From positions 1 through 29,535 of IMG/VR virus record IMGVR_UViG_3300020178_000512: a stretch of 29,535 bases of DNA. One strand, written 5' to 3'. Source of the DNA: a virus. A model generated the notes under the pieces. That model made no database searches. It saw nothing but the letters and a program-made list of their open reading frames with translations, and had not been told where the DNA came from. Position 1 is the first letter of the stretch. The number at the start of each line of letters is the position of its first letter. Made by a program: the position numbers and the translations under genes. Positions 1-26,883 of this stretch are shown piece after piece.

Positions 1-385
1 ACTCTTTCATATTTCTTTTGATGGTTACTGTATCGAACCAATCACCAGCTTCAGAAAGTGTTAAGGTTTTAGCTGCTTCTACAACACCAGCCAAAGTTTC
101 AGCGGTTTCAACAATATCGGATTGTCTCCTCATTTGTTCTTGGAAACCTTTGTAAGTAGAGATAATTTCTAAGAAATGTTTCTTTACTTCGGTTGCTAAA
201 GGTCTATTAGCTTCCAATGATTCAGATAAACTGAATTTACCATCTACGATTTTTACTTCGTTGATGTTAGTTTTTCTAATATCGTTATATCCTTTAACTA
301 CCTTAGTACCTTTAGGAGTGTCCACATTTAAACTAAATTTGTTATTGTGAACATAATCGTATATGTCAAAGTTCTTCTTACTCAT
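1..385 (-). CDS. Partial protein in the gp22 scaffold position
   Basis: This is the N-terminal 128 residues of a gene that runs off the left edge with no stop. It starts at an ATG whose first base is the last base of the gp21 stop (TAATG), so the two are translationally coupled. The protein is charged and mostly helical, with no fold I recognise. In T4-like phages the prohead core scaffold gp22 follows gp21, so a scaffold or core role is inferred from position only. A possible gp21 cleavage site, L110-S-E112|A113, lies in the segment TLTLSEAGDWF. It could equally be an unrelated core protein; the missing C-terminus would decide. Confidence 0.6.
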   Translation of the reverse strand, partial: MSKKNFDIYDYVHNNKFSLNVDTPKGTKVVKGYNDIRKTNINEVKIVDGKFSLSESLEANRPLATEVKKHFLEIISTYKGFQEQMRRQSDIVETAETLAGVVEAAKTLTLSEAGDWFDTVTIKRNMKE

Positions 386-972
386 TATGCTAATTCCGTT
401 ATAATTTCTCTCATTAAGTCTTGTGATTTACAAAAATCTCCACAAACATCAGTACCAATTTGCTTAACTACTGATTCGTTCATTGGAGTCATAAATGCAC
501 CATGTGTAGATGGGTTGGATACGAAATCCCAACCGATTAGTTCAAAATCTTCACCAACTAAAAGTTTGTTACCTTCCATTGGTTTTGTAGAACCCATACC
601 TCTTGATGAGATACCTAATAGGATTCCAGCTCTTAATAATTCTTTTAAAATGTTTCCAGAAGGAGTAGGTAAGATTTCCACTGTACCTACCACATCGTTA
701 CCTTCCCAATGAATCTCTCTGATATTGTGAGATACATTCTTTAGGTTAATAACCGAAGAATCTGGATGGTCTAACTCACCCAACGCTCTTCTCTCTTTTA
801 TTAGTTGTTCGTATTTTTTTACTTCTCTTTCTAAAATATTTTTTGGGTACACTCTACCATTTTGGTTTTCTGCACCTGCTCTTTGAAGGACACCCTTTAC
901 TAAGGTTCTACCTGATGAATCCTCATTCACTCTCCCTTCAAACAAATTTGTTTCAATTAATAGACCTTTCAT
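385..972 (-). CDS. gp21: Prohead core protease (T4 gp21-like)
   Basis: A 195-residue serine protease of the T4 prohead protease family (peptidase U9/S80), which degrades the scaffold and trims head proteins before DNA packaging. The family blocks are clear: NGRVYP at 38-43, GELDHP at 65-70 with the probable catalytic His69, and GISSRGMGS at 120-128 with the probable catalytic Ser (122 or 123). A conserved aspartate-containing segment, ELIGWDFVSNPS, lies at 144-155. Length fits the family (about 200 residues). The start ATG has TAAGGA upstream and lies 7 nt after the preceding stop. The gene sits between a core polyprotein and a scaffold-position gene, and neighbouring proteins carry matching cleavage motifs. 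Assignment is firm; the exact triad is inferred from the family. Confidence 0.95.
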   Translation of the reverse strand: MKGLLIETNLFEGRVNEDSSGRTLVKGVLQRAGAENQNGRVYPKNILEREVKKYEQLIKERRALGELDHPDSSVINLKNVSHNIREIHWEGNDVVGTVEILPTPSGNILKELLRAGILLGISSRGMGSTKPMEGNKLLVGEDFELIGWDFVSNPSTHGAFMTPMNESVVKQIGTDVCGDFCKSQDLMREIITELA

Positions 973-3969: not shown

Positions 3970-5727
3970 TTATTCATCTATCAAATTCGAATCATCTAAA
4001 AAGTCTCCGTTTTCACTCATCAACTTCTTTTTTGCCGAAACTCCGTTTACATATTCTTTAGCGAATTTATTAGCTTTTTTAGTAACCGAAGATTCATTTT
4101 TAGATAACGCTTTTTGATTTTCTTTTGCTCCTAAAGGGTCTCTTCCATAAGGATGTTTATCCTTACCATAAGTATTCCCTTCTCTTGGTCTTCCACCTTT
4201 ATCTTTTAATGATGATTTTAATTCTTCTAATTCATCTTCAACATCAGTTGGTTCTGATTGAAGTGCTGGGTCATTACCCTCATCCTCAATCATACGGTAA
4301 CGATATCTATCTTTAATATCATTGATAAGGTTAGTTTTCTGATGGTCAATTTCATCATCACTAAAGTTGAAGATATTTTTATATGCCCATTCTTTGGATA
4401 CCATATTCAACTGAGTAATATCAGAAACCAATCTAACTTTCTCACTCCATAGGTTTACTTTCTCTTGCTCATAAATTGTAGATGGATTAACTAAGTTTAA
4501 TTCAAAATCTACCATCTCTGTTCCTTCAATACCTTGAGCTGCTAAGTGAGTTACAGCAATCTTAGTTAATTCTGAGATAAGAGTTCTTTGGATTCTTTCA
4601 ATTGTTCTTGCGAATCTTACATCTTCTGCAGCAAGAGTTGCTTTACCATTCACATTCTCATCGTATCCCAAATATGCTTTTGGAATCTTTAGAGCCGCAA
4701 ACATTTTGTTCTTTAGGTAATCAATATCATCAATTGCAGTGTATTCTAAACCACCCAATGAATCTATTTCAGTTCCACTATCACCACCCCTAACAGGTAA
4801 GAAGAAATCTTCAGTTAGGTTTTGAATATTATACTTTAAGTTGTAATCACCAGTTTGTTTGTCCACAAATGGAGTTTTCTTCATTTTAGAAATAATCTTC
4901 TGCATGTAGTTATCAACTTCTTGTGGTGGAATGTTACCAATATCAATTTTGAATACTCTCTTATCAGGTGCTCTCATAATTCTATGAATCAACATCGCAT
5001 CCTCCATAAGAGAAACTTGTTTCCAAATTCTTCTACCATTTTCAATCATTGCCTTACCATAAGGTAAGAAGTTGGTATCTGATAATAATCTAAAATGTAC
5101 TACTTCAAAGTTTTCATATTCACCTTTACCATTTGGGTCGTGATTAACTTTGAATTTTACATAGTTGGGATTATTTGGGTCAGTATTTTCCAATCTTTCA
5201 GTTTCATAAACCGGAAGTGGTTTTACATTGATGATACCAGCACCAGGTTGAATTTCTTGTAATAAAAAGAAATCACCATACTTAACCATATTACGAGTCC
5301 AAGACCAAAGATTGAACTCAATATTAAGAATATCATAGAAAAGATTTTCTAAGATATCTTTTACTCTTTCGTTTTTTGTTTTGATTTGTACAACTTCTCC
5401 GAATTCGTTTTTGAGTGTACATTCATCTGCGTAGATATCCAATGCTGATGAGATAATTGGGTCATTATCCATAGCATCATAATCTCTGAACAATTCTCTT
5501 CTAACTTGATGGTATGCCATTGATTGAGCTGCCATCTGGTCTCCATAAAAAGACCTTTGTAGTTTGGTGTACCTATCTCTTAAATTCATTAAGTTAGTAC
5601 CACCTTGCTGTCTATCATCCACATCAACAACTCGTCTCTTTCCATCCTTGTCAACCTTTACGATTGCTTGGGTAGAAAAGAGTTTAGTTAATCGATTAAA
5701 AAATGAACTGTTTTGTTCTTCTGCCAT
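3970..5727 (-). CDS. gp20: Portal vertex protein (T4 gp20-like)
   Basis: A 585-residue protein of the T4 gp20 family. It forms the dodecameric ring at the head vertex through which DNA enters, and on which the terminase and neck dock. Recognisable family segments are ELFRDYDAMDNDPIISSALD (about 78-97), DECTLKNEFGEVVQI, the MLIHRIMRAPDKRVFKIDIG region and the KIPKAYLGYDENVNGKATLA region. Length is close to T4 gp20 (about 524) with a charged C-terminal extension. The ATG has no clear Shine-Dalgarno and lies 31 nt after the upstream stop. It sits between the terminase side and the protease side, in the usual T4-like order 17-20-21. Confidence 0.95.
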   Translation of the reverse strand: MAEEQNSSFFNRLTKLFSTQAIVKVDKDGKRRVVDVDDRQQGGTNLMNLRDRYTKLQRSFYGDQMAAQSMAYHQVRRELFRDYDAMDNDPIISSALDIYADECTLKNEFGEVVQIKTKNERVKDILENLFYDILNIEFNLWSWTRNMVKYGDFFLLQEIQPGAGIINVKPLPVYETERLENTDPNNPNYVKFKVNHDPNGKGEYENFEVVHFRLLSDTNFLPYGKAMIENGRRIWKQVSLMEDAMLIHRIMRAPDKRVFKIDIGNIPPQEVDNYMQKIISKMKKTPFVDKQTGDYNLKYNIQNLTEDFFLPVRGGDSGTEIDSLGGLEYTAIDDIDYLKNKMFAALKIPKAYLGYDENVNGKATLAAEDVRFARTIERIQRTLISELTKIAVTHLAAQGIEGTEMVDFELNLVNPSTIYEQEKVNLWSEKVRLVSDITQLNMVSKEWAYKNIFNFSDDEIDHQKTNLINDIKDRYRYRMIEDEGNDPALQSEPTDVEDELEELKSSLKDKGGRPREGNTYGKDKHPYGRDPLGAKENQKALSKNESSVTKKANKFAKEYVNGVSAKKKLMSENGDFLDDSNLIDE

Positions 5728-6216: not shown

Positions 6217-7800
6217 TTACAACCATTTAGTTAAGTCCTCAAATCCATCACCAATATTCATTTGCCAAGGATTTTCATCATTATCATTTCCACCATATAC
6301 CCCACTATAAGTATATGTAGATATACCATCAATCGCTCTTTTAGTTAAATCAATACCTTCCTGCCTTAAACGAAGTGCAGTATCTCTAACCCATAGTGAA
6401 ATTGCTAAACTCATAGTTAAATCATCATTGTAACCTCTCATCGCTTCAGCTCTACCATTAAACCAAATAAATGTGAATAATTCCTCAATAGTTCTAATTG
6501 AACGTATTGTAATTGATTTTTCTCTAATATATTCTTCCAATTTGGAAATGATTAAAGGTCTGGTTCTTGATGTGGTTGAAAATCCTGCTACCATACCTCT
6601 ATCTTGTGCTCTATATTTGTTTGAAAATTGGTTCTCTACATCTACATACTTCAAATCTTTACTCATATAGTAAAGATTGGGATAGTTTCTATCGATTACT
6701 TGTTGGATACATGCCCAACCAACATTTGCATTTTCAATTACCAACAATGCGTTGTTATATTCAGTTGCTAATGCTACCAAAAAATTTCCAAAATCTTTTG
6801 TATCTAATTTACCTCTATATTCAGCTACTTGTTCTGAATCCTCTACATCAATTACATGAGCAGCTGAGTAGTCGGTTGAATCACCTCTAGAAACATCGGC
6901 AACTACCATATATGATTTAGAATAATCTGGATATTGCCATTTCCATAGATTACCATCAAATCCAGTTTTTTCTATTGGTTCTTGAACATAAGTGGATTTA
7001 TAAAATTCTAAAACTTGAGGGTCAATTACACTATCACCAGAAGAAATAAAATCACAGTCACATTCTTGTGCTGCTCCCTTTGGTCCTAATAAAACTTCTT
7101 GTTCATCTCTCCAATTTTTGTCTCTTTCAGGATGTAAACTCCAATGTAAACGAATCGTATTGAATGTGTTTGTACCATCTTCAGCACCTACCCAAGTTTT
7201 GTGGAAGAAGTTACCTACACCATTTGGAGTTGATAGGATAATTGCGTTACCACCAGTTGAAAGGGTAGATTGTGCGGATACCCAAATCTCCTCAATCTTA
7301 TCAATGAAAGCCGCCTCATCAAATACCAATAAGGATAGTGCTTCAGAACGACCAGCATCACCAGCGGCTGAAGTTGCTTTGATTTGAGAACCATTCGAAT
7401 ATCTGAGGGATAGTTTATTATCTTCAACAGTTTCTAACTTTAACCAAGAAGGAAGATACTGATTCATCACTCTTACTTTGGTTACCAAATTTTTTGCCAC
7501 TTCTTGCTTTGTTGCAATTACCAATACATTGAAATCTTGGTTGAATAGCATTTTCCAAAGAGAAAACCCAGCGGTTAGTGTTGATATACCAGTTTGTCTG
7601 GATTTTAAGATGATATTATATCGGTGGTCTTTGAATTGTGTTAAGGTATCCTCTTGAAACGGATAAAGGTGAAAAGGAATTTTCCCTCTCACCGGATGTT
7701 GAATCATACAATACTTCCTCATAAAATATATGGGGTCAGAAGCACACTTTTGATACTCCTCTTTGATGATTTCTTTTAATGTTTTCTTTTGTTGTGCCAT
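6217..7800 (-). CDS. gp17: Terminase large subunit (T4 gp17-like)
   Basis: A 527-residue DNA-packaging motor protein with ATPase and nuclease halves. The ATPase half has the Q-like segment PFHLYPFQ (42-49), Walker A SRQTGIST (67-74), Walker B LLVFDEAAF (157-165, with D161 and E162) and the coupling segment ILSTPNG (188-194). The RNase H-like nuclease half has VVADVSRGDSTDYS (299-312, D302), VIENAN (354-359, E356) and YNDDLTMS (457-464, D459/D460), which together supply the metal-binding acidic residues. Length is slightly shorter than T4 gp17 (610). It converts ATP hydrolysis into DNA translocation through the portal and cuts the concatemer. The portal gene follows after one small gene. The ATG directly follows the end of the lysis-like gene. 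Confidence 0.97.
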   Translation of the reverse strand: MAQQKKTLKEIIKEEYQKCASDPIYFMRKYCMIQHPVRGKIPFHLYPFQEDTLTQFKDHRYNIILKSRQTGISTLTAGFSLWKMLFNQDFNVLVIATKQEVAKNLVTKVRVMNQYLPSWLKLETVEDNKLSLRYSNGSQIKATSAAGDAGRSEALSLLVFDEAAFIDKIEEIWVSAQSTLSTGGNAIILSTPNGVGNFFHKTWVGAEDGTNTFNTIRLHWSLHPERDKNWRDEQEVLLGPKGAAQECDCDFISSGDSVIDPQVLEFYKSTYVQEPIEKTGFDGNLWKWQYPDYSKSYMVVADVSRGDSTDYSAAHVIDVEDSEQVAEYRGKLDTKDFGNFLVALATEYNNALLVIENANVGWACIQQVIDRNYPNLYYMSKDLKYVDVENQFSNKYRAQDRGMVAGFSTTSRTRPLIISKLEEYIREKSITIRSIRTIEELFTFIWFNGRAEAMRGYNDDLTMSLAISLWVRDTALRLRQEGIDLTKRAIDGISTYTYSGVYGGNDNDENPWQMNIGDGFEDLTKWL

Positions 7801-9223: not shown

Positions 9224-12200
9224 CTATTCGTAAAATAAACCGAGAATCTGATTGAGTGGTGCGAATGTTCCCGTCAATTTGAAAGTTTTTCCACCATACA
9301 CAAATACGATTCCTTCATTTGGTACAATCTTATTCTTTCCACCGATTGCGTTTAATCTTTCCAACTCTAATTTAAGTTTAGAAACTTTCTTTGGGTCTCC
9401 ACCTTTCTGAACATCTTTGATGGTTTGGTCTAATCTCTTTTTCATATCTCTAACAGCAGAATTAGGATTTGCTGTCAGTGCTGAACTCATAAATGATAGA
9501 ACCTCTGCTCCAACACCTAAGAAGATATCTTCAAATGGTCTGATGTTATCCTTAGCCATCTTAGCATGGTCATTCTTATCAATCCCCTTAGCCCATTCTA
9601 AAGTTTTCTCATCAGTAATGTTCTTATTATCTAATCTGAATGATTTATCGTAGAATGCCCATCTCTTTACCAATCCCATTAGGGTTTTGTTATCTAACTT
9701 AGATGGTGATTTCTTATTCACAAAATCCATCCACCAAGCCTGATGATATTCTGCTACACCATCGGTATCTTTTAATTTAAACTTAGATTGTAGTTTTGAT
9801 ATTTGCCCATTATACTTTCCTTTAAGTGAAGAAAGGTTTTTGGATTTAGGTAATTGAACTACTGGTGGGCCTTGGATTGTGTAAGCTGATTGAACATCTG
9901 CATTGATTTGTTTAATCATACCAGCTAACATTCTAGCAGCGTCTTGGTTCTCACCAATTGCGATACCATCCTCATTATACTCCATCGTTCCGTGGAATAC
10001 TAAAAGTGCTTGTCCGTAAGGAATTACATTAACAGAAGTTGGATAGATTACTTCCAAATTCATAAAACATGCTCCACCTTTGAAAATTTTCTCTCTCTGC
10101 TTTTCGGATAACTTTGAAATGGCTTGGGTCAAATCTTTCATTGCGAAGTTATACGCTTTCTCCAATTCTCCTCTTCCTGCAAACTTCATAGCTACACCAT
10201 TGATATCCAATGCCCCAGCTCCTTTGTTTTTCAAATGTCCTTTGTTTCTCGCTGCAACCAATCTTCCATCTCTCCAACTAACTGCTAATGCTTGACCATC
10301 GGTCTTTTCTCTAGTGAGTTCCAAATTACCCTCTAAAGCTTTGTTTACAATATCTTTCAATTGTCCAAAAGTTAAATTGATTTCAGTATCAAATGGGTGA
10401 TTCATATGTCCATATGCTCCACCTTCGGTTAGTAAAACTTCATTTAACAATTTCTTTAATCGTATCATTTCTTCACTTTTATTAGTTGATTCAGTAATAC
10501 CACCACCCAATGCATATGGTTCATTATACTGAAGTTTTTCCTTATCAAATTTTTTTCTTAATCTCTTTAATTCTTCGCTATGGTCATCAATCCATTTTTG
10601 GTCAGGATAGCCATGTGGTGCCACTTCTTCAAGTTCATCACCCAACCCACTTTTATCTTTTGGATACATTTTGTGAGTACGATACATTACATACTCTTCA
10701 ATATCTTTAAGTTTAGTGTAATACTTTGGGTCCTCATACAAATGGTCTAATGCAATTCGTTCAGCCACACTCTTATCCGAAGTGTGTTCCATTTCTACTT
10801 TGATTCCCGCTTGTAATTCTTTATCTAAATCATCAATATCTACACCATGCATATTTGCAATATCGTAGATATCCATACCCTTTGCTAATTGTTCAAATTT
10901 ATATTCTGGGTCTGGAGTTTTAAAATCATCTTTTCTCATTATGGTTTTAGCGATTACTTTGTTCGCTTGTTTCATAAATGGAATGTTGATTTTACTTCTA
11001 TTATCTTTTGCTACGATTTGTCCATATAGGTTTAAGAAGTTTAGGAATTCCTTTTTCTTCTTTGCTAATCTTTTGAAAAATCCGATTAGTTCCGCAGGTG
11101 TAATTTCTTTTTTGTTTCTTGGGTCTGTCAACCTATCAAAGAAATGTTTATCGGTTAAAACTACATCTACTGGGTTTAGTTGTTTATCAGCGTATGTATC
11201 AATCTTAACCAAATCCGCCATTGGGATTTCATCTAATTGAACTTGTACACCTTCTTTTAAGATTCTAAAGTTTACAACTTTTCTACCATTGATGGTTGGC
11301 ATTCCATGTTCATCTTTACCAATAGTTTTAACAACTGTCTTTTTGTTTTTGAATCTACCCGTTAATATCGTATCACCAATTTTTACTGGGAGTTTAATAT
11401 CCTCTTTAAGAGTGTTACCCACTTCTTCTTTTTCATTTTCAATACCAACTAAAGATTCTTCTCTTTCATCTTCTAACTCAATAAAGTCAACTAATGAGTA
11501 TCCAACCAAACCAGCTACTCTAGTTACATGACTCCACCACTTATCGTAAGCTTCAGAACCATAAAAATCTTTTTGGTTTGTAGCAGTTGTTTTACCAGCT
11601 ACACCTGCTGGGAATGGGGTTACTGCCTTTACAGGACCTGTTGGATAAATTGGATGTGGGTCAATATCGGTAAGTTCATCACTCATTATTTGAGCTAATA
11701 CAGTATATCCAATTTTTTCTGCTCTTCTTTGAGAAATTCTATCGAATGTTGAATATGATGGAAATAAAAAGTTAGGGCCATCATCTACCTCGGTTTTACC
11801 AATAGTTTGAGATGCTTCTTTAATTAAATCAACATTATTAACTAACCACCTTTCTACCACTTCCTTTGGAATAGTAAATTCTTCGTTTAATGTATTGGTT
11901 ATAAAATTAAAAATCTTTTGATTGAATTTTGGATATGCTCTTTTTGAAAAAAACTTTTTCTTATCTTCTTCTGAACCTGTTGATAGTCCTCTACGAACTT
12001 CAGTTCCACTCACACCTCCTCCCCCTTCGGGAGCGATATACACATACCCCCTATCTTCATATCCTTCAAAATCAATTCCATCTTTGTAAGGAGTGAAGAA
12101 TTTACCACCTAATCTACTAGCATCTTTTTTACCAACAACGGTAATAAATGCGGTGGTATCTTTATTAAATTTTTTAAGTACCTCAGTTGGTACATATGGG

Positions 12201-12478
12201 TTCTTTACTTCAACGATTTGGTTTTTTGGAATACCAAACATCGTTGTCATAATCATCACCTTTTCTTTGAAGTTAAATGGTGATTTATCATTATCTGTTT
12301 TATTGGATGTACCAATATAAACATTGTTCTTACCAAACTTCTTTACTAAATGAGAATAAGTTGCGTAATGGCCCTTATGAAAAGGTTGAAAGCGGCCAGC
12401 GTAGACTACAACTTTGTTTTCTACACCGTCCGCTTCCCCTAATATACTCTCTACTAAAAATTGAGATAATTCGTTCAT
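9224..12478 (-). CDS. NMN-adenylyltransferase-like / RNA-ligase-like fusion protein
   Basis: A 1084-residue multidomain protein. Residues 20-200 form a nucleotidyltransferase (HIGH superfamily) domain resembling NadM/NadR NMN adenylyltransferases: GRFQPFHKGH (28-37) with the HxGH motif, and GVSGTEVRRG (155-164), the SxTxxR-type motif. Residues 222-335 hold an uncharacterised phage segment; 361-406 is a small beta-rich segment; 444-503 (KHFFDRLTDPRN and following) is of a type seen in other marine phages; 525-592 resembles DUF5661 (VEMEHTSDKSVAERIALDHL). Residues 686-1084 resemble covalent nucleotidyltransferases/RNA ligases: KTDG (725-728, candidate AMP-accepting lysine), NLEVIYP (807-813), NEGIVF (1054-1059) and KTFK (1064-1067). 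It may match the family called DUF6267, from memory only. Cleavage motifs LGE15|A, IKE221|A and LTE685|G precede domains. Substrates are unproven. Confidence 0.85.
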   Translation of the reverse strand: MNELSQFLVESILGEADGVENKVVVYAGRFQPFHKGHYATYSHLVKKFGKNNVYIGTSNKTDNDKSPFNFKEKVMIMTTMFGIPKNQIVEVKNPYVPTEVLKKFNKDTTAFITVVGKKDASRLGGKFFTPYKDGIDFEGYEDRGYVYIAPEGGGGVSGTEVRRGLSTGSEEDKKKFFSKRAYPKFNQKIFNFITNTLNEEFTIPKEVVERWLVNNVDLIKEASQTIGKTEVDDGPNFLFPSYSTFDRISQRRAEKIGYTVLAQIMSDELTDIDPHPIYPTGPVKAVTPFPAGVAGKTTATNQKDFYGSEAYDKWWSHVTRVAGLVGYSLVDFIELEDEREESLVGIENEKEEVGNTLKEDIKLPVKIGDTILTGRFKNKKTVVKTIGKDEHGMPTINGRKVVNFRILKEGVQVQLDEIPMADLVKIDTYADKQLNPVDVVLTDKHFFDRLTDPRNKKEITPAELIGFFKRLAKKKKEFLNFLNLYGQIVAKDNRSKINIPFMKQANKVIAKTIMRKDDFKTPDPEYKFEQLAKGMDIYDIANMHGVDIDDLDKELQAGIKVEMEHTSDKSVAERIALDHLYEDPKYYTKLKDIEEYVMYRTHKMYPKDKSGLGDELEEVAPHGYPDQKWIDDHSEELKRLRKKFDKEKLQYNEPYALGGGITESTNKSEEMIRLKKLLNEVLLTEGGAYGHMNHPFDTEINLTFGQLKDIVNKALEGNLELTREKTDGQALAVSWRDGRLVAARNKGHLKNKGAGALDINGVAMKFAGRGELEKAYNFAMKDLTQAISKLSEKQREKIFKGGACFMNLEVIYPTSVNVIPYGQALLVFHGTMEYNEDGIAIGENQDAARMLAGMIKQINADVQSAYTIQGPPVVQLPKSKNLSSLKGKYNGQISKLQSKFKLKDTDGVAEYHQAWWMDFVNKKSPSKLDNKTLMGLVKRWAFYDKSFRLDNKNITDEKTLEWAKGIDKNDHAKMAKDNIRPFEDIFLGVGAEVLSFMSSALTANPNSAVRDMKKRLDQTIKDVQKGGDPKKVSKLKLELERLNAIGGKNKIVPNEGIVFVYGGKTFKLTGTFAPLNQILGLFYE

Positions 12479-13002: not shown

Positions 13003-13755
13003 TTATAAATTTTCGTAATCTATTGTTGTTACACCTCTTTTTTGTACTACTTGTGCTGAACAACGATTTCCGAATTGTATTGATTTTGGAATATCTTCGG
13101 AATCTAAGAACTCTTTCACAAATCCTGCTACAAAAGTATCTCCAGCTCCTGAGATATCCATAATCTCTACTCGTTCGGTTGGATACATTGTACCGTTGTA
13201 CATACATCCATCCTTATCTAATGTAATTATTAACTTTTCTAAAATCCAATCGTTCTGCTCTATAAATTCTTTGTTGTTTTCAAATTCTGAACGATTAAGT
13301 TTTATAAATCGTAAATCTCTACACCACTCACCCAATTTTTTCTTTGTATCACAAATTACATTTGGGTGTTTGAATCCGATATATGCTATATCTTCTTCGG
13401 TTAGGAATCCTTTGTTGTAATCAGAAACTACAACCATTTGATATTCCCAAAAATCCAACTTAGGTAATCTATCACCTATGTTATCAATATTTTTTTCCTC
13501 ATCAATTCTTAAAAGTAAAGTGTTTGATGGTTCGTGAATGTGTCTTGTCTTTGTAATTGGAAATTTTTGATGTTCAAAATCTACATCAATGTTTAGTGCA
13601 GATAAATTAGCCATTACATTCATTCCCATACCACCATTGTAAACTTCTCTTTTTGGAATGAATACAGGCGCAGGTCCTTCGGGTGAAAGACGAGGGGTAT
13701 CTCCATAAATGAAGATATCATCACATTGTTCTCCTATTACTAATACTTTACTCAT
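13003..13755 (-). CDS. hldE: PfkB-family sugar kinase, HldE kinase-domain-like
   Basis: A 250-residue kinase resembling the N-terminal domain of HldE (RfaE domain I), which phosphorylates D-glycero-D-manno-heptose 7-phosphate at C1. The N-terminus VLVIGEQCDDIFIYGDTPRL and SPEGPAPVF (about 4-33) match the RfaE pattern GDTxRxSPExPxPV. NGGMGMNVMANLSALN (40-55) corresponds to the sugar-binding GGAANVA segment. DISGAGDTF (200-208) is the PfkB signature with catalytic Asp206. It is shorter than a typical HldE kinase domain (about 315 residues), with apparent loss of central elements, so activity is not certain. Its start overlaps the stop of the nucleotidyltransferase gene by 8 nt (ATGAGTAA). Together the two form a split HldE. 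A different sugar substrate is possible. Confidence 0.85.
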   Translation of the reverse strand: MSKVLVIGEQCDDIFIYGDTPRLSPEGPAPVFIPKREVYNGGMGMNVMANLSALNIDVDFEHQKFPITKTRHIHEPSNTLLLRIDEEKNIDNIGDRLPKLDFWEYQMVVVSDYNKGFLTEEDIAYIGFKHPNVICDTKKKLGEWCRDLRFIKLNRSEFENNKEFIEQNDWILEKLIITLDKDGCMYNGTMYPTERVEIMDISGAGDTFVAGFVKEFLDSEDIPKSIQFGNRCSAQVVQKRGVTTIDYENL

Positions 13756-14131
13756 CCAATAAACCAGTTGTTGAGAATCCTTCTACTTTAGAGAAATATT
13801 CTATTTTCTTAGCATGCTTTCTACCAATGATTCCCTTATCTCTATATTCTTCACCAATTACAAAAATATCAGGTTGATACTTTTTAATTAAATTTGATAA
13901 TTCTTTATCTGAATCAAAAACTACAATATCAGTTACTCCATCAATTTGAAGTAAATTAAATATTCGTTGATTCTGATTATGGAAGGGTCTACTATCTCCC
14001 TTTGATTCTTTTACTCTTCTATCCGAATCGATTCCTATTTTTAATTCTCCACCAAAAGATTTTGCGTGTGCAATCAACTTAAAGTGTCCGTGATGGAGAA
14101 CATCAAAACATCCGTTAATCCAAACTTTCAT
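13748..14131 (-). CDS. hldE: Heptose-1-phosphate adenylyltransferase, HldE C-terminal-domain-like
   Basis: A 127-residue cytidylyltransferase-family enzyme resembling RfaE domain II, which makes ADP-heptose from heptose 1-phosphate and ATP. It has INGCFDVLHHGH (5-16) with the HxGH nucleotide-binding motif, then LKIGIDSDRRVKESKGDSRP, which matches the family's GVNSDxSVxxLKGxxRP pattern, and a C-terminal EGFSTTGLL that fits the STT(x)I-type motif. Length matches the stand-alone domain (about 130-160). Glycerol-3-phosphate cytidylyltransferase is the main alternative, but the adjacent RfaE-type kinase and heptosyltransferase favour ADP-heptose. It abuts the stop of the heptosyltransferase gene upstream and overlaps the kinase gene downstream, in a tight operon. 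Confidence 0.85.
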   Translation of the reverse strand: MKVWINGCFDVLHHGHFKLIAHAKSFGGELKIGIDSDRRVKESKGDSRPFHNQNQRIFNLLQIDGVTDIVVFDSDKELSNLIKKYQPDIFVIGEEYRDKGIIGRKHAKKIEYFSKVEGFSTTGLLDE

Positions 14132-18453: not shown

Positions 18454-21400
18454 TTATCCAATTATTATAAAATTTAATCGTGCAATGTTTGTATAATCAT
18501 CTTCACTTGATGTTGCCGATGGGTCTTGTGCCCACACTTGAATAGTTGCAGTAGAATTAGCTACATTACTTTGTACAGTACCCGTACCCAATCCTAATTG
18601 TTGGTCATCACCACCACCACCTGTTATTAATCGTACACCACTACCTACCATACCAAACCACTTAGCATCTGCATTTGCTCCGGTGGATAAAACAGTATCA
18701 ATGGTAACATTCCATCTACCATAATTCGTAGATGAAATTGAATCAAAATTACCAAAACTCATAGCAATAGTTTCGGTTGGGTTTGATGTAGTGATTGCTG
18801 CAAAGGATATGTTAATTAATCCACCACCCTTTATAGCGTATGGGTGTCCTGCTAGGTTATATGCACCACCAATACCAGGTGCAGCTGTAAATCCACCTGC
18901 ACCATACAATTTATCCACAGCAAGTCCACCCTGTATATCACTAATGTAACCAATATCAGAGCCAAATGCTTTGGTTGTATCCGATGCAACTCTGAAGTAA
19001 TTGGTTGCATCTTTAATTACAGCAAATCCACCACCATTCACATATGTACCTGTATTCTGAGCTTCAAGAGTTACATAGTGAGTTGTTCCAGATGGTGCAT
19101 AACTAAATTGTGCAGAATATTGGGTATTTGCAGCTGAAACAGTTAAAGACGTATCTATCACATAATGAACATAATAGGTTCCTGCTGCTAAACTTTCAAT
19201 AGTTTTTGTCAGATTTGTTGATGGGAATGTATTAATCCCACCACTTACAGGAATAGTTGTTACGAAGTTGTGAGAAACAATATTGTTAGAGATATAGTTG
19301 TTTAATTTAGGTATTTCCATAGAATATACCTTAATCGTTTTAGCAATCAACTCTACCGAATCTACTATTCGTTTTACAAAAGAATCTCCCTCTTTCACAT
19401 AAACCTCATCTTCACCAGCTCTTAAATCAGTTACTATGATTTTCCAACCAGGAGCGTAGAAGAATCCGTGAGTATCGGATACTTCAACAACATTATCACC
19501 AACCTTTACTCGATAAACTTTATCTACAACCCTACTTTTTAAATGTTTTATTTTAGCAGATTCGTATTGATTTGTTTCCACATTCCAAGCTAAAATTGTA
19601 TCTTTAACTCTTAAATCTTCTACATTTTTAGTTTCACCATTTGATAAAGTAATTTGAGTTCCCTCAATTACAGATTCATATCCAATACCACCCTCATCAT
19701 ATCCAATAGATTGTTGAGTAATTGTTTGACTGGTTGCGTATAAAGTTCCACCACCACCTGTCGATGAATCTCTCAATTCTGCTCGAAGGGCGATAGTAGC
19801 ATATGAACCAGCACCAACACCATCCACATAAGTGTTACTATTTTGAACATGCTGTGCTTTCATTTTATACTTACCAGCATCAGAAACAGTCAATGCACTA
19901 CTAACTCTATAATTCGTAACTTCCGAAGTACCCGTAGAGGTATTACCAACGCCAAGTTGTTCAGTAATAGCAGTAGTCGATACTCCGGCAGTTGCCGAAC
20001 CACCACCACTTAAATCAGGTAATGAGGTGCCTGTGTTTGCATTAAATCTAGGATTACCATCAGTATCACCAACCGAAAAATCAGAATCTACTGAGTTTAG
20101 GGTAATATTTCCCGATGAATCTTGAATACCAGCTGAGTTGATAGTCCATCCACCAAGAACACCATTATTTGCTGTTATAGTACCTGAGAATGTGTTATTA
20201 TCACCTAATGCAGTTACTTCACCTTGTTCATTAACCCTAAAATTAAATTCTCCTGAGTTTGTATCAAATCCAACCAATAAACTACCACCTCTAAGAGTTG
20301 AACCTGTAACGAATCCACTATATACAAGAGTAGTACCATCAAAATCAACAAAACCAGATTCAGGGTCTGTTATATCAGCATACATTGAAAATTTAGGGTC
20401 TCCTGTTACACCAACAGTTCCACCATCGAATCCTAAGAAAATACCATCCTGTCCATAACCTTGAGTTCCACCCTGTCCTATTGAGATGTAAGGGTTAGCG
20501 TTTGTACCAGCAGCATCAGCGTTTAATGCAATTACAGCCGAACCATTTTTAGCACCAACATTTATTGTTCTATCAGCATAAACATCTTGTGCAAAAAGAA
20601 TATCAGTTGCAACTGAAGTAAATTCTGCTCCAAATGCATCCCAACCAGCTCCCCAAGAACCAGGTGCGATTGAAGAACCGATTGAATCCCAATCAGCAGT
20701 GGCTATATTAGGTTCCTGGTCACCTGGTGCGGTTGCATTAACACATATATAATATGTACCAGAATAAAGGACAACATCATCTGCAACATATCCAACAGAA
20801 CCACCACTCCAAGTACCAGTATATCTATGAGTTGTAGCACATACCCAATAGTTAGAAGCACCCGATGTGTATTTTACAACATATTTTAAATCATCCTCAC
20901 CTAAATAAACAACTTTATCGGTTGTATCGGGTGTAGAACCATCGGGTAATGTTAATGTCCATTCTCCAGCATATACGATACCAGCAGCCTGTCCATTTGC
21001 ACCATTTGCACCAGAAGTACCCGAAGTACCTGATTCACCTGCTTTGGATTTAGTTAAGGTTTGTGTGGTGGATATTGTAAAATCAGTTCCATCTAATCGT
21101 TTCCCACTAAATTCATAAGTAATAACAACCGTATCCGCCGTCATATTGGAATGTTGAGTAATATTGAAATCATCGTTACTATCAATATTATCAGTTCCTA
21201 AACTTAAATTATTAGGAGTTACTGTAAATGTTGGAATATCATAAGTACCTGGACTCGTACCACTTTCATCATAAGTTAATTTAGTTGCTCCCTCATAAAT
21301 AATAATAGTAGTACCACTACCAGCATAAGATGAAACCGTACCATCGGATGCAGCGGGGAGTGTATGTGCTTGGTTAGTATTTACAACAGTAATACCATCA

Positions 21401-24400
21401 GAACCTTCTTCAACTCTAACAATTGTAATCTCATCACTTACCCCATCAGCCGTTGCAGTAACAGTAACTGCACCATTTGTGCCGAAATCGGTATTTGATA
21501 AAGTTCTCGTATCACCCGTTCCACTTAATGTTACGCTTGGGGATGATGTAAATCCAGAGGTTGAAGCTATGTTTTGTCTATTGGTAGTAAATGTAATTGA
21601 TGCTGGGGTTAATGTAGCACTATCTTTTGGTTTTACGAATGTTTGTGAACTTGCAGATAATCTAATCGTTTTTGCAGTAGCACCCCCACTACCAGCAGTA
21701 CCTGCCGTTCCCGATGTACCAGCAGCTGCTGCTAATGACCAAGATTCAGCATTATCCACACCAACACCAGGTTCATAACTATCCACCGATGCAGTGTGAG
21801 CTAATCCAATCATAGTCCAACTCTGACCAGAATTACTTACAATATCATTTGGATAATAAATTGAACCAGCTGTCCAAGTACCCCTTAATGAACCTTCAAT
21901 TATACCAGCAGCTGTTTGTCTGATTGCTCCCCTAATAGTAAGTGTATTACCATCCCACTCCATTGAGTTGTAGGTTTGATTTGGAGGACTACCAATTGGT
22001 GATGATTTTAATGATAAAATGCCCGTTGTTCCAGCAGTTCCAGAAGAACCGAAATCATTAGTCATACCAATGAATACACCTGGCTGTCTAAAACCTTGAG
22101 TACCAGTCTGTCCAACTGAAATGTATGGTTCATCCGTTCCACCAACAATAGCGATGTTAGCGTTTTGATTTCCAGCAGGTGGAATACCAACATTAATTGT
22201 ATTCTTAACAAACGATTCTTCGAAGATTGCTAACTTAGCTGCTACAAAGAAATCTTGTTGACCTAAATACTGCCAAGTAGTAGCATAATCAATATCACCT
22301 TCTTGAGTTGCGGGTGGTCCAGCATCGTATTGTGGTTGAAGTGTATAAACACCATCACCATCTACATATTCCGAAGCGGTTGGGGTTAATTCAGTAGTTG
22401 CCCAATAGTGAACATCGCCACTAATTTCTCTAAATACTGCATCTCTTCTCTTTTGATTTAAATCAAATACATAAGGAATGGTTTCATCCCACTCACCCCT
22501 TACAACTAAACCAGGACCAGTTGCTCCTTCAAAAACAGTTGAGAATGATTGTTGTACAAATTGAGTTCCTCTACCATTTTCAAAATCAATTTTATAAATG
22601 ATATATCCTTGAGTATTATCTTGAGGTAAATTCCAATTAGTAACTGCGGATGCACTAGCATATAATTCATCTTCGGTTGGTGAAATTGATTTGGAAACAA
22701 TACTTTTTCCATCCCTCAAAGTACCAGCTGTTAAAAATGATGATATTTCATGTATAGATGCTGAGAATTGTCCGAATGTACCAATTGGTAAGAACGTAAT
22801 CGGGTCAAACGCATTTTCGTTATATTCCTCAACATATTGTAATTCAGTTCCACCTTTATATGCCCTAATTAAAGTACCACCATTATCAAAATAAGTTGTA
22901 CCATCAACTTCAACAGTTACAGAAGATGCTGGGTTTGATAATTGTGCTGAATATGCCTGTGTACCTTCTTTAACACCAGAAATAGTTACACTATCAATAT
23001 CAGCAATTGGAGAAGATGCACCACCATCTCTAAGGTTTACTGTGAATAAACTTGATGAACCAAAATTAGGTAAGTAGTTATCAATATTAACAGTATTGGA
23101 TGTAGATGAACCCCCACCAATAGTACCACCATCAGCATCTAAAAATTCAAAATAAGCAGAACCAGTTGTGTTAAATGCAGTTGCGGTAAGGCTAACCGAA
23201 CCAACAGGTGCAACTTTAGTACCATCGCCATCATAAATAACAGTATCACTATTTGATACTAATGATACCTTTCTAGCTTTACTACCATCATTTACTTTTG
23301 AGAAGGTTTGAGTTTTGGATACAATAGTAGGTACACCAGCAACCCCACCTTTAAGTGCATATGGATAAACTCTAAAGTTATATGTTATACTAGCAGAAGG
23401 TTGATTTCGTTCAATACCACCAAATCCCTTAAAGTGTAAGATTTCATCTCCACTTAAAGAGCTATCTCTTTGAGAAGATGATACCTCAGAAAATGTAATA
23501 CCAGAAGCAGAAATGGATGCCGTTAAGAATGTACCGGGTGTTCCCGCATTAGTTTCATCATAAATTAAAAACTCATCGTTTTGTTTGATAAATACTTCAG
23601 TTGTACCAGCAGTATAATTTGAAATAAATCCACTCTCATCTGCATTAAATGAAACAGCAATAGGGTCTAAGTTTACTTCAATAGCACCAGCTCCTTCTAC
23701 AACCTTTGTGAACTTCTGAGTTCTACTTGCGGTAACTAAAGATGCTGTAAAATATGGGTATATATCAAAATCATATTTAATACTAGCACTTAAAGCTGTC
23801 ATATTAGAAAATCCAGCCAAACTCATAGTTGTGGTTGAATCACCATCCAATGTTCCAAATGAAATATTAATTGGTGTTACCGATGTTGTGGTAAATGTAC
23901 CAGGGTCACCTGATGCGGTATTTATTAAAAATAAATCACCTTGTGTAACTTGAATATCAGTATTCGCTAGTGAGTAATTATATACCTCACCTTTTGGATT
24001 AGACCCTAACGAAACTGGTTGCGGGTCTATATCAATAATAATAGCATTTTGACCTGGTAAACCATCAGGTGTAATAAAGAATGATTTATTAGCGGTTACC
24101 GATGCTGATGTAATTGGTTCGGTATAGGTAAATTCAAAATTTAATTGTTTTGTATCATCCGCTTGAAAGAATGTTATGGGATTCCCACTTGTTTCATCTA
24201 ATGTTTGACCAGGTACACCATTATTAATAACATTACCTTGAAAATCCGTTACAGAAACAGTAATACTTTCATCAAATGCTCCAGTTTCATAGAACATATA
24301 GTAATGAGGTAATTCCGTTTTTGTTTCAATCGATGCCGATGGAATTACCTTTAAACTAGCAGATAAAGGATTTAAAGTTGTACCTCTTCGTTGGAAAGAT

Positions 24401-26883
24401 GCTGTTACTATTGATTGTAATGGGTCAAACTGAGAAACTTCTCTTGGTTTATATTTGATGTTAAATTGTTCGGTTGTGGATGTTACTAAACCTGGATTTA
24501 AACCATCTTTTAAATCGGTTAGTATAAGTGAGGTTAAAATAGATTCCGAAGTAGGTCCATCCATAAGGTAAACCGTCAATTCATTATCAATAGAATCTCT
24601 CGTAAAGATTGCGTTGTAATCAATCTCACCACTACCAGTTGTACCAGCAGTTACACCTTCTATAAAATTAGGGTCAGTAATTGCTTGAGAAAGAGATACA
24701 TAGGTAAGTACAGTATCTACCCCATCGATTGATGATGATAATAAGTGTAGCTTTGCATCAGAAAATCCCCTATCCAACCCATCTCTAAGTTGAATTCTAT
24801 TAATACCATCAACCCTAATAGCTTGAATTTCTAATGTTTTAGATTCTTTGTTTTTAATTTGAGTTCCCCTAAAAGGTACAATTTCAAAACTAACACCACC
24901 TTTACCATCTTCAACTCTTGTAATTACAAATGTATCCGATACTCCCTCAACTTCACCAGTATATCGAATAAATTGAACAACAATATCTTCCCTAGAACCC
25001 GTAAAGTCTTGAACTCTTAAAAATGGCTGCCTACCTAAATCAACATTCCAATCAGTTAAGTAACCAGGATAACCACCCACAGAATAAGATGCTTCTGGAA
25101 TAAGATTCCCGAAGAAATCATATGCACCAGAGGTATAAGTAATTGAACCTGTAACTAATGTGGTTTCCACATCAAAGTTAATTACAGTAGGTGGAATTGG
25201 ATTTGCTGGGTTGGATGCCGAATCAAAAGAAAAATATAAATTATCAGGAGTAATTTCAATACTTTTTTCAAATAAATTAGTATTACCACCAACAAATGTT
25301 TTTGTTGTTTCAACTCTAATAGGAATAAAGTTGTTGTTTATATCATAAAATTCGAAACGATAATCGAATGTTTCTGTTACTAATGTTTTTGGTACTTGTT
25401 GAATGAATGTAATTTCATCAGGTGAAAACGATGTTTCTTGAGATGCTTTTAAACTTACATTGTTAATGTACCAATCACTACCACTTACCTCAAAATATAA
25501 ACTAGCCGTTTGAATATTATCGGCTATAATATTTTCATTAAAATTTGTTTTTTGTAATAGGGTATTTGATGAATCTATTGTAGTGATTGTTTGAGAAACA
25601 GAACTACCATTTATAGAACCACTTAAAAATACCTTTAAATAATCACCAGAAGTATTAGCATCCTTTCTTACATTTAAATCCAAAGTGTATTCTACTCCAC
25701 TTTGTATTGAGAAGCTTTGTGAGGTATAAAAATAATTACCAGGTGAAGAATCCAACTTAGCTGAGTTGTATAACACATCTTGATTAAATGTTACATCAAA
25801 ATCATTAGATGATGTTACCCAATATGAATCTAAAACACCTTGAGTAAAAATACCATAGTTTTCATCTTTTTTATCAAAGGTAGTGATATCTCTTAAAAGT
25901 TCATTTGATTCTAATTGTATTTCTTGTACAAACTCAAAATCAGTTAGGTTTGATTGAGACCTTCTAAATACTTTTACCCTTGCCGCATCACCAACAAATG
26001 TTTTCATATCGGTGATGTTAATCTTAGCAAAGGAACCAGTCAATGCTGTTGCTAAATCACCAACACCCTCTATATATGGAAATGTTAATGAATAATCTTC
26101 ATTTATAAATGGTTGTACTGAATCATTTACTGAATATGGGGGAGAAACAACTATTTCGGTTTCGTTTACAACTTCATTAATTGTGGGTGAATATGTAATG
26201 TTATCAAACGAAATAGTTTGCCCTTCAATTGAACCAGTCCATTTATTACCACTATTAACTTTTAATCGATACGAAGTTGGTAATGTAAAATTTGATAAAT
26301 TTGTATTTTGAGTTGGTACTAAAGGAATACCATCAACCGAACCAATTTGGGTTACTGATGGGGGATTGCCACTAAAGATTGGCTTCACCACCTCATCAAT
26401 AGTTACTTTAGGTCTACGATAAAATCTTACCTTATCTTCGTTTGCAAGATTTTTATTAACTTGGAAAGTTCTTTGCCATTTAACATTATACGCACCTTGC
26501 CATTCGGTTGGAATGGGTCTCTTTACCCCATTTTCATCATACTCTTTAAGTTCTCCTAAAATGGTAATTTTACCTAAACCAATTGGGGTATCATTATATA
26601 CATAAACAGCTACTAGTTTAGATATACCTTCATAATATTCAGGAATACCATTTCCTGGTTCATAATAAATGGGCTCCCCATTAACATCTAAAAGTTCAAT
26701 TTTAATCTCAGTTGATTCTTTTAGATATTCCGAACCTTCAATTAAAAATCCATTCTTACCACCAGTAAATGTATCCTTAAATTCAGTAATACGAAAGTAG
26801 TCCGAATTTGGATTTTCATCTACCAAAAATGTTTGAAATGATGATAAGTTTTGTTTAGGTGCAAACTTTTTAATTCTAGCCAT
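18454..26883 (-). CDS. Giant tail fibre/adhesin-like protein with inserted Hint domain
   Basis: A 2809-residue Ser/Thr/Gly-rich beta-structured protein, probably the host-recognition fibre. The N-terminus (KKFAPKQNLSSFQTFLVDEN) resembles fibre-type structural proteins of marine T4-like phages. From about 520 to 1960 there are at least nine tandem beta-sandwich-like modules, most ending in a K-x-x-(D/E)-G turn (for example KFTKVVEGAG, TFSKVNDGSK). Collagen-like triplets occur near 1609 (GSSGTAGTTG), 1720 (GTSGTAGTAGSGG) and 1950 (GESGTSGTSGANGANG). Two segments resemble CBM5/12 carbohydrate-binding modules: about 1665-1718 (RGTWTAGSIYYPNDIVSNSG) and 2018-2070 (TGTWSGGSVGYVADDVVLYS). Residues 2404-2539 are a Hint domain. 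The last 270 residues are a Gly-rich beta tip. No signal peptide or membrane helix is present. It is followed by an assembly-chaperone-like gene. Confidence 0.85.
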   Translation of the reverse strand: MARIKKFAPKQNLSSFQTFLVDENPNSDYFRITEFKDTFTGGKNGFLIEGSEYLKESTEIKIELLDVNGEPIYYEPGNGIPEYYEGISKLVAVYVYNDTPIGLGKITILGELKEYDENGVKRPIPTEWQGAYNVKWQRTFQVNKNLANEDKVRFYRRPKVTIDEVVKPIFSGNPPSVTQIGSVDGIPLVPTQNTNLSNFTLPTSYRLKVNSGNKWTGSIEGQTISFDNITYSPTINEVVNETEIVVSPPYSVNDSVQPFINEDYSLTFPYIEGVGDLATALTGSFAKINITDMKTFVGDAARVKVFRRSQSNLTDFEFVQEIQLESNELLRDITTFDKKDENYGIFTQGVLDSYWVTSSNDFDVTFNQDVLYNSAKLDSSPGNYFYTSQSFSIQSGVEYTLDLNVRKDANTSGDYLKVFLSGSINGSSVSQTITTIDSSNTLLQKTNFNENIIADNIQTASLYFEVSGSDWYINNVSLKASQETSFSPDEITFIQQVPKTLVTETFDYRFEFYDINNNFIPIRVETTKTFVGGNTNLFEKSIEITPDNLYFSFDSASNPANPIPPTVINFDVETTLVTGSITYTSGAYDFFGNLIPEASYSVGGYPGYLTDWNVDLGRQPFLRVQDFTGSREDIVVQFIRYTGEVEGVSDTFVITRVEDGKGGVSFEIVPFRGTQIKNKESKTLEIQAIRVDGINRIQLRDGLDRGFSDAKLHLLSSSIDGVDTVLTYVSLSQAITDPNFIEGVTAGTTGSGEIDYNAIFTRDSIDNELTVYLMDGPTSESILTSLILTDLKDGLNPGLVTSTTEQFNIKYKPREVSQFDPLQSIVTASFQRRGTTLNPLSASLKVIPSASIETKTELPHYYMFYETGAFDESITVSVTDFQGNVINNGVPGQTLDETSGNPITFFQADDTKQLNFEFTYTEPITSASVTANKSFFITPDGLPGQNAIIIDIDPQPVSLGSNPKGEVYNYSLANTDIQVTQGDLFLINTASGDPGTFTTTSVTPINISFGTLDGDSTTTMSLAGFSNMTALSASIKYDFDIYPYFTASLVTASRTQKFTKVVEGAGAIEVNLDPIAVSFNADESGFISNYTAGTTEVFIKQNDEFLIYDETNAGTPGTFLTASISASGITFSEVSSSQRDSSLSGDEILHFKGFGGIERNQPSASITYNFRVYPYALKGGVAGVPTIVSKTQTFSKVNDGSKARKVSLVSNSDTVIYDGDGTKVAPVGSVSLTATAFNTTGSAYFEFLDADGGTIGGGSSTSNTVNIDNYLPNFGSSSLFTVNLRDGGASSPIADIDSVTISGVKEGTQAYSAQLSNPASSVTVEVDGTTYFDNGGTLIRAYKGGTELQYVEEYNENAFDPITFLPIGTFGQFSASIHEISSFLTAGTLRDGKSIVSKSISPTEDELYASASAVTNWNLPQDNTQGYIIYKIDFENGRGTQFVQQSFSTVFEGATGPGLVVRGEWDETIPYVFDLNQKRRDAVFREISGDVHYWATTELTPTASEYVDGDGVYTLQPQYDAGPPATQEGDIDYATTWQYLGQQDFFVAAKLAIFEESFVKNTINVGIPPAGNQNANIAIVGGTDEPYISVGQTGTQGFRQPGVFIGMTNDFGSSGTAGTTGILSLKSSPIGSPPNQTYNSMEWDGNTLTIRGAIRQTAAGIIEGSLRGTWTAGSIYYPNDIVSNSGQSWTMIGLAHTASVDSYEPGVGVDNAESWSLAAAAGTSGTAGTAGSGGATAKTIRLSASSQTFVKPKDSATLTPASITFTTNRQNIASTSGFTSSPSVTLSGTGDTRTLSNTDFGTNGAVTVTATADGVSDEITIVRVEEGSDGITVVNTNQAHTLPAASDGTVSSYAGSGTTIIIYEGATKLTYDESGTSPGTYDIPTFTVTPNNLSLGTDNIDSNDDFNITQHSNMTADTVVITYEFSGKRLDGTDFTISTTQTLTKSKAGESGTSGTSGANGANGQAAGIVYAGEWTLTLPDGSTPDTTDKVVYLGEDDLKYVVKYTSGASNYWVCATTHRYTGTWSGGSVGYVADDVVLYSGTYYICVNATAPGDQEPNIATADWDSIGSSIAPGSWGAGWDAFGAEFTSVATDILFAQDVYADRTINVGAKNGSAVIALNADAAGTNANPYISIGQGGTQGYGQDGIFLGFDGGTVGVTGDPKFSMYADITDPESGFVDFDGTTLVYSGFVTGSTLRGGSLLVGFDTNSGEFNFRVNEQGEVTALGDNNTFSGTITANNGVLGGWTINSAGIQDSSGNITLNSVDSDFSVGDTDGNPRFNANTGTSLPDLSGGGSATAGVSTTAITEQLGVGNTSTGTSEVTNYRVSSALTVSDAGKYKMKAQHVQNSNTYVDGVGAGSYATIALRAELRDSSTGGGGTLYATSQTITQQSIGYDEGGIGYESVIEGTQITLSNGETKNVEDLRVKDTILAWNVETNQYESAKIKHLKSRVVDKVYRVKVGDNVVEVSDTHGFFYAPGWKIIVTDLRAGEDEVYVKEGDSFVKRIVDSVELIAKTIKVYSMEIPKLNNYISNNIVSHNFVTTIPVSGGINTFPSTNLTKTIESLAAGTYYVHYVIDTSLTVSAANTQYSAQFSYAPSGTTHYVTLEAQNTGTYVNGGGFAVIKDATNYFRVASDTTKAFGSDIGYISDIQGGLAVDKLYGAGGFTAAPGIGGAYNLAGHPYAIKGGGLINISFAAITTSNPTETIAMSFGNFDSISSTNYGRWNVTIDTVLSTGANADAKWFGMVGSGVRLITGGGGDDQQLGLGTGTVQSNVANSTATIQVWAQDPSATSSEDDYTNIARLNFIIIG
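19267..19674 (-). other. Hint (intein-like) domain within the giant fibre
   Basis: This segment encodes residues 2404-2539. It begins SVIEGTQITLSNG, which fits the block A pattern C-x-x-x-G-T-x-I with Ser for Cys at position 1. It has VEVSDTHGFF (His2472), fitting block B (T/S-x-x-H), then IKVYSMEIPKLNNYI (block F) and NNIVSHN (block G, ending in Asn2539). At 136 residues there is no room for a homing endonuclease. The residue after the final Asn is Phe, not Cys, Ser or Thr, so canonical splicing is unlikely. This resembles bacterial intein-like (BIL) domains that mainly cleave. It interrupts what looks like one beta-domain. Confidence 0.8.

Follow-up and report, generated by a model that had tools for sequence, protein, structure and literature searches.

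Why would a virus join two nucleotide-transferring enzymes in one long protein, and encode it among the genes of its head? The question is raised by the virus record IMGVR_UViG_3300020178_000512 (positions 1 to 29,535; this whole stretch of 29,535 bases is called the window here), where an open reading frame (ORF) of the minus strand, P0001, running from 12478 to 9224, specifies 1084 residues with an HxGH nucleotidyltransferase domain at the N-terminal end and a KxDG ligase-fold domain at the C-terminal end. A first-pass annotation had reported this protein and proposed that it is a pro-enzyme, cut in the prohead and injected with the DNA to give NAD-related and nucleic-acid repair activities; the protein is real, and lies on the minus strand. 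Our interpretation, which we hold to be probable, is that P0001 is a modular pro-protein that would be packed in the head, cut there and injected as an immediate RNA-repair kit. Its basis in the sequence is the domain make-up, the conserved catalytic residues, the mosaic cargo and the conservation of a motif at the module borders; the packaging, cutting, injection, activity and RNA-repair role of P0001 we infer.

The two terminal enzyme domains

The ORF and the domains at its two ends lie in the window as follows.
9224..12478, minus strand: whole ORF P0001, 1084 residues
11864..12433, minus strand: NMNAT-like HxGH nucleotidyltransferase, about residues 16-205
9227..10423, minus strand: KxDG RNA-ligase-like domain, residues 686-1084

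What is the C-terminal domain? Its KxDG is K725-T-D727-G728, and five of its residues are invariant across 47 sequences, K725, R744, E809, E1055 and K1067 (K40, R59, E124, E370 and K382 in domain numbering), the last four of which we take to be those of ligase motifs Ia, III, IV and V. An AlphaFold2 model, made from the 47-sequence alignment and starting at G686, has a pLDDT of 88. Compared with the PDB by Foldseek, it found RNA ligases on top and in 26 of the first 28 rows, the other two being a putative DNA ligase; all 50 entries listed by VIA-align 2 were RNA or DNA ligases or capping enzymes, the best being Naegleria RNA ligase (Z 8.9, root-mean-square deviation 4.1, 185 residues aligned), followed by T4 Rnl1 and Rnl2. 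Conservation and model together support placing the domain, as RNA-ligase-like, in the KxDG covalent nucleotidyltransferase superfamily. This bears out the earlier assignment, for which a comparison of the predicted structure of residues 686-1084 with RNA ligases had been suggested.

The domain shares fold and motif residues with T4 Rnl1 and Rnl2 and with Naegleria and archaeal RNA ligases, to judge from model and conservation. Unlike the kin of T4 Rnl1/Rnl2, however, it has no family match above cut-off in Pfam, PHROGs or NCBIfam, where P0001 matched none of the curated RNA-ligase models at E 1 either, and it includes a mostly helical insertion of about 200 residues, which in the model separates what we take to be motifs IIIa and IV. 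We found no description of this family in the literature. Among the four closest BFVD models, two are of phage proteins (825 and 915 residues) that bear the name 'cytidyltransferase-like', so fused forms have seemingly been deposited already under that name. A sequence search of the PDB with the ligase profile returned eS6 ribosomal protein and others, all judged chance matches. RNA ligases of PF09414 that are encoded separately occur at E 1e-3 in 5 of the 14 records, 4 of these matches being above cut-off.

Could the domain be another covalent nucleotidyltransferase (a DNA ligase, a capping or a nucleotide-transfer enzyme), possibly one that depends on NAD and is supplied by the fused NMNAT through recycling of NMN? 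The KxDG residues belong to the superfamily at large, DNA ligases and capping enzymes are also among the VIA-align entries listed (Z 5.3-7.6), and the smallest fusion seen, of 639 residues in Microcystis phage Mel-JY01, is the nucleotidyltransferase and ligase alone. Our assignment to the RNA ligases is further weakened by a motif V with a single lysine (KLTG), the second being absent, and by a best Foldseek match of just E 9e-3. However, RNA ligases fill the first 19 VIA-align rows (Z 7.9-8.9) as well as nearly all the leading Foldseek rows, and no OB or NAD-binding Ia domain was matched in P0001 with the three libraries; we regard this alternative as unlikely. NAD-dependent LigA-type ligases are not among the 50 entries listed, which is no evidence either way.

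At the other end of P0001 the HxGH motif is H34-K-G-H37, inside GRFQPFHKGH (28-37), and residues 156-162 read VSGTEVR, an (I/V)S[ST]xxR-type motif, both NadM-type motifs being intact. The domain matches Pfam CTP_transf_like (E 9.8e-8), PHROG_395 (E 2.3e-15), PHROG_3041 (E 1.4e-13) and NMN adenylyltransferases of the PDB (best E 8e-5). 'NMNAT-like' is a fair name for it since its scores with the NMNAT models of NCBIfam fall short of the cut-offs (33.1 bits where NF002243 demands 127, 29.4 where TIGR01527 demands 181). Its sequence supports membership of the NadM-like nucleotidyltransferases at superfamily level, and at that level the NadM-type domain of the first-pass annotation stands. In a set of ten sequences compared pairwise it matches 5 of the 9 others, with an E of 2.8e-9 that is specific to the set, and does not match T4-GC190 of Syn1.

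With these motifs and matches, and with HxGH retained in 39 of 39 distinct sequences of the clade of P0001, the protein might, packaged and cut likewise, serve mainly to restore host NAD against NAD-depleting defences through its NMNAT-like domain. NADases liberate nicotinamide, not NMN, and NadV would therefore be required for such restoration; a NAPRTase/NadV match was found in 1 of 12 fusion-holding records (G005) and in 2 of the 14 searched (W03 being the other), most of which are or may be fragments, and none in the 190-kb record of Mel-JY01. A NAD role has been proposed for phage NadM/NadV (PMC9503650) and for virion NMNAT-like proteins (PMC9602691); in the available text of the former, every NadM phage seen has NadV. 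The missed cut-offs also argue against a main role in NAD restoration, as does the loss of the first catalytic histidine in other clades. It is gone from Mel-JY01 and from 24 of 25 distinct second-clade sequences (GPHH type), which is awkward for our interpretation as well. NAD restoration as the main role seems to us quite improbable, and of the NAD-related activity suggested earlier, the NadM-like motifs hold, whilst a role in replenishing NAD has weak support, given the NadV survey.

Predicted cleavage sites between modules

How would the parts of such a protein come apart? The following segments bear on the answer.
12434..12478, minus strand: N-terminal leader, residues 1-15, ending LGE15|A (also FLVE10|S)
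11813..11827, minus strand: predicted site LIKE221|AS, behind the nucleotidyltransferase
10487..10498, minus strand: predicted site ITE663|S
10424..10468, minus strand: residues 671-685, an internal segment that resembles a leader and ends LTE685|G; it corresponds to the N-terminus of a split-gene ligase (414 residues)

The motifs LGE15|A, IKE221|A and LTE685|G, read before as cleavage sites of gp21 type, are all present. Sites of the pattern [LIVFMY]xE|[AGS] (ΦxE for short) occur in P0001 at E10, E15, E221, E409 (ILKE409|G, near the end of a middle module, m3), E663 and E685, and LKE359|D directly precedes m3. Their conservation was followed among IMG/VR relatives, of which 98 were confirmed for the whole protein (80 kept, 78 distinct loci), at least 593 for the ligase domain and 304 for the Mel-JY01 type, with 80 kept of each of these two. 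The start motif is present in 182 distinct ligase ORFs, of which 73 are complete, P0001 among them; 10 of 220 ligase ORFs had no start pattern and were left out, namely eight cut by contig ends, Mel-JY01 (IAE|GG) and LR756508.

The motif stands above chance at the borders across this family. Of the distinct 15-residue windows before the ligase, 103 out of 105 end in [LI]xE. Amongst dissimilar linkers (clustered at fewer than 6 of 15 residues identical to the first member of a cluster, with one representative each, remoter kinship being possible) ΦxE lies exactly before the ligase in 35 of 36 clusters, against a mean of 1.8 and a maximum of 7 in 2000 shuffles, and at other upstream positions in 24 of 1080 cases. 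Before m3 it is found in 19 of 20 clusters (shuffles: mean 0.6, maximum 4). Windows close to the ORF start were left out, as 15 residues are needed for the window count and 40 for the cluster test; two later relatives, L341 and L342, lie outside the counts, both with ΦxE|GG by eye.

The motif also ends the leaders at the N-terminus, where [LIVMF]xE occurs within residues 6-26 in 56 of 58 distinct 30-residue N-termini, and those of modules encoded on their own. In split genes (loci L038, L045, L103, L104, L105 and L106) the ligase is an ORF of 414 residues with the 15-residue leader MIRLxKxLxEVLLxE|GG, the ligase of the huge phage LR756500 begins with an 18-residue leader ending LILE|GG, and in Flavobacterium phage immuto two middle modules, m4 and DUF5661, form a separate protein of 252 residues with a leader ending IIKE|A. 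In T4, residues 10-19 of ipI, ipII and ipIII include ITE|A or IAE|A, and the major capsid proteins of G001, G005 and Mel-JY01 have QLLDE|A or QLISE|A aligned with FLTE65|A of T4 gp23, a protein from which 65 residues are removed (PMC9958956). This pattern suggests that ΦxE at the module borders of P0001 may be where the phage's own capsid protease cuts. A candidate protease is encoded in the window, together with other head genes.
385..972, minus strand: predicted processing enzyme, a head maturation protease of the T4 gp21 family (phrog_207)
3970..5727, minus strand: portal protein (phrog_213)
6217..7800, minus strand: terminase large subunit

The protease matches phrog_207 with E 4e-53, T4 gp21 belongs to the same PHROG (E 8e-76), and proteases of this family were found in 13 of 14 long records. 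The features of a gp21-type substrate are thus present by sequence, i.e., ΦxE after a leader and at borders, and a cognate protease in the same phage, in agreement with the processing proposed earlier. The T4 precedent invoked for it is sound too, as the T4 protease trims IPI-III and Alt (PMC9958956).

There remain points that weigh against cutting. Internal windows of leader length, taken at random, hold the leader motif in 25% of cases; the residue after the cut (P1') is variable, m3 starting with D in 33 of 50 and N in 8 of 50, and leaders being followed by A, G or S in just 31 of 56; two of the 105 windows before the ligase read LLLM, with M in place of E; and LR756508 (L150) has no ΦxE|GG before its ligase. 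With packaging and cutting of P0001 being predicted, the variable P1' and the 25% of random windows would fit an ordinary multifunctional enzyme, late or early, that is neither packed into the head nor processed, and in which ΦxE belongs to the fold of each module or arises in the linkers by chance. Yet such a motif would hardly be expected at a fixed spot before two unrelated modules and behind dissimilar linkers, nor at the end of leaders in stand-alone versions. The first five residues past the LTE685 site are disordered in the ligase model (which left out the residues before the site), and the gene of P0001 shares strand and block with those of the protease, portal and terminase. An uncut, unpackaged enzyme is in our view an unlikely explanation.

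What others have detected in virions are stand-alone NMNAT-like proteins of cyanophages. A putative citidylyltransferase, T4-GC190, was detected by mass spectrometry in purified S-SM1 virions (PMC3037559); T4-GC190 is the cytidyltransferase gene of Syn1 and P-HM2, and both proteins fall in PHROGs 3041 and 395, like the domain of P0001. A cytidylyltransferase is reported with 3 peptides from S-CREM2 virions (PMC10665884) and an NMNAT is listed for those of S-SCSM1 (PMC9602691); of these three, kinship to the P0001 domain is supported by PHROG for T4-GC190 alone. In the available text on S-CREM1, which has 14 virion proteins, it is not stated whether an NMNAT is among them (PMC9964418), and no virion proteome of a Flavobacterium phage was found in that of PMC7077304. 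This line of evidence has its own weaknesses. The authors on S-CREM2 and S-SCSM1 warn of possible carry-over (PMC10665884, PMC9602691), the nucleotidyltransferases detected are small and distant from P0001, whose domain matches one of two T4-GC190 proteins pairwise, and we found in the literature no virion study of P0001 or of any fused relative.

Directly upstream of T4-GC190 in Syn1 and P-HM2 lies DUF6267 (phrog_455, T4-GC71), where a K-x-D-G-A-P-like motif, E-G-x-V and a K farther on are invariant across 12 sequences and give it, by eye, the look of a KxDG nucleotidyltransferase; examples are HTVC008M gp127 (L248:2302-3534) and Syn1_160 (L334:2977-4173), and tblastn matches were found in 469 phage records. 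As kin of the P0001 ligase it was rejected (hhalign probability 0.2%, likewise in a single-sequence run, and no link to a PDB ligase). We found no paper naming DUF6267 in the literature.

A mosaic family and its possible role

What would be released together with the two terminal enzymes? Beyond what had been noticed earlier, the middle of P0001 holds further modules.
11429..11815, minus strand: module m2, residues 222-350, with no family match above cut-off
11243..11401, minus strand: module m3, residues 360-412, also in separate genes of other phages
10889..11242, minus strand: module m4, residues 413-530 (phrog_23027, E 2.7e-8)
10694..10864, minus strand: DUF5661, residues 539-595 (Pfam E 1.7e-14)

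A RegB-like signal of m4 is weak: of 21 members, 4 match REGB_T4 (E 1.1e-4 at best), the window's own copy not among them; hhalign gave a probability of 0.2% for m4 and T4 RegB, and a PDB sequence search with m4 gave zero matches below E 1. The AlphaFold2 model of m3, m4 and DUF5661 is poor (mean pLDDT 57.7).

In relatives this middle part is exchanged. The 73 complete family ORFs have 18 module orders and 414-1999 residues; all of them end with the ligase, 64 include the nucleotidyltransferase, and the cargo in between varies. That of L052 is the head of a CCA tRNA nucleotidyltransferase (Pfam PolyA_pol, E 2.3e-29; PHROG tRNA nucleotidyltransferase, E 2.5e-60) with an HD domain; L179, L209 and L164 have a zeta/AAA_33 kinase module, whose homologue in HTVC008M is a separate gene matching a polynucleotide-kinase PHROG (E 8.5e-8); and L218 has a Zn_protease match, no peptidase being matched by Pfam in P0001.

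Three side observations touch on this mosaic. Short CxxC...CxxC segments, zinc-ribbon-like, are inserted in linkers shortly before the ligase (L014, L017, L093 and others). SSM2_109 of Synechococcus phage S-SM2 (L249:3992-6118), found as a match with the L179 relative, has 708 residues and several ΦxE sites and lies between terminase subunit genes. Another multi-enzyme phage protein, immuto gp088 (L343:2902-5625; 907 residues, annotated NadR), by eye starts with a Pol-beta-type NTase and also contains an HxGH-like domain and a pair of HExxH motifs like those of peptidases.

If our reading of P0001 as a packed and cut pro-protein is correct, its short leader would target it to the prohead core, where the gp21-type protease would cut after ΦxE, at the leader and at the module borders, and release the two terminal enzymes, the NMNAT-like nucleotidyltransferase and that of RNA-ligase fold, along with at least one effector module from the middle. 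The freed enzymes would remain inside the head until they pass into the host along with the DNA. Together they would most likely act before early gene expression, sealing and end-healing tRNA or other RNA cleaved by the host, whereas the nucleotidyltransferase part may supply NAD or ATP, or carry out a modification of its own. The RNA-repair reading agrees with what is known of phage repair systems, whose components include ligases, kinases, phosphoesterases and CCA-adding enzymes (PMC7824862), and the relatives' cargo (kinase, CCA-adding and HD) appears a better match to RNA repair than to NAD restoration. The repair role put forward earlier is favoured to this extent; it is weakened by the kinase and CCA modules belonging to relatives and being absent from P0001. 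To this must be added that the best Pfam match of the kinase is Zeta_toxin, the polynucleotide-kinase PHROG being matched by the HTVC008M homologue only, and that a GNAT-like stretch of the relatives is below the Pfam cut-off.

Known counterparts, genomic setting and meaning

Enzymes packed in heads, leader trimming and polyvalent proteins are all known. The internal head proteins and Alt of T4 resemble P0001 in the short N-terminal leader ending ΦxE|A, the protease of the same PHROG and a similar gene block. They each lose a small N-terminal peptide (PMC9958956), whereas the predicted sites of P0001 lie also between enzyme modules, so that one gene would yield several enzymes. Polyvalent proteins, like P0001, combine many disparate domains in one phage protein (2-15) and are predicted to be injected (PMC5512222), and some domain types are common to both (GNAT-like and Pol-beta-type NTase in relatives of P0001, ParB-like in L150, by eye). 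However, they are proposed to be processed by zincin or assemblin-like peptidases that they carry themselves (PMC5512222), a metallopeptidase of their own being common, though not universal, whilst none is matched in P0001, for which a separate prohead protease is predicted; and no RNA ligase is described for them in the available text of PMC5512222. The T4-GC190 proteins of cyanophages share the HxGH domain of the same PHROGs and have been detected in virions (PMC3037559). Those of Syn1 and P-HM2, adjoining the KWDG protein DUF6267, have 183-189 residues and, unlike P0001, no fused ligase. A polyprotein in which protease sites punctuate exchangeable enzymes was not found described in the literature.

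The terminase of the window has its nearest counterparts in the phage collection in Microcystis phage Mel-JY01 (57%) and Flavobacterium phage immuto (56%), for which reason the virus is read as a T4-like myovirus, perhaps of Bacteroidota. A contig of a Flavobacteriales metagenome-assembled genome has a relative of P0001 followed, by eye, by terminase- and portal-like ORFs. PADLOC models gave zero matches to P0001 at E 0.01. Elsewhere in the window, a PfkB-type protein (13003-14131, minus strand; Pfam E 1.4e-20) adjoins a small GCFDVLHHGH protein and glycosyltransferase-like ORFs, a group that looks like a heptose/lipopolysaccharide sugar-nucleotide set, and a protein of 2809 residues (18454-26883, minus strand) matches Intein_splicing at 2416-2539, though below threshold (E 1.4e-5; 25.4 bits where 35.8 are required), and CBM_5_12 weakly.

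In a wider sense, we tentatively suggest that many T4-like phages may pack into their heads an interchangeable suite of enzymes that is synthesised as a single polyprotein, in which prohead-protease sites would be the punctuation, the NMNAT-like domain and a new RNA-ligase family the fixed parts and the modules between them exchangeable, the whole serving as an RNA-repair kit ahead of gene expression; the nucleotidyltransferase and ligase pair may itself be a coupled cofactor-recycling unit. The RNA-ligase-like family is in any case an addition to those in the libraries searched (Pfam, PHROGs and NCBIfam), and both the reality and the purpose of NMNAT-like cargo in cyanophage virions become a directly testable question. 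If the interpretation is true, modules separated by protease sites would offer a simple rule for spotting delivered enzymes in unannotated phage genomes, the modular system of leaders and sites could be used for protein delivery, and RNA repair would be at work from the very start of infection, ahead of defences that cleave RNA.

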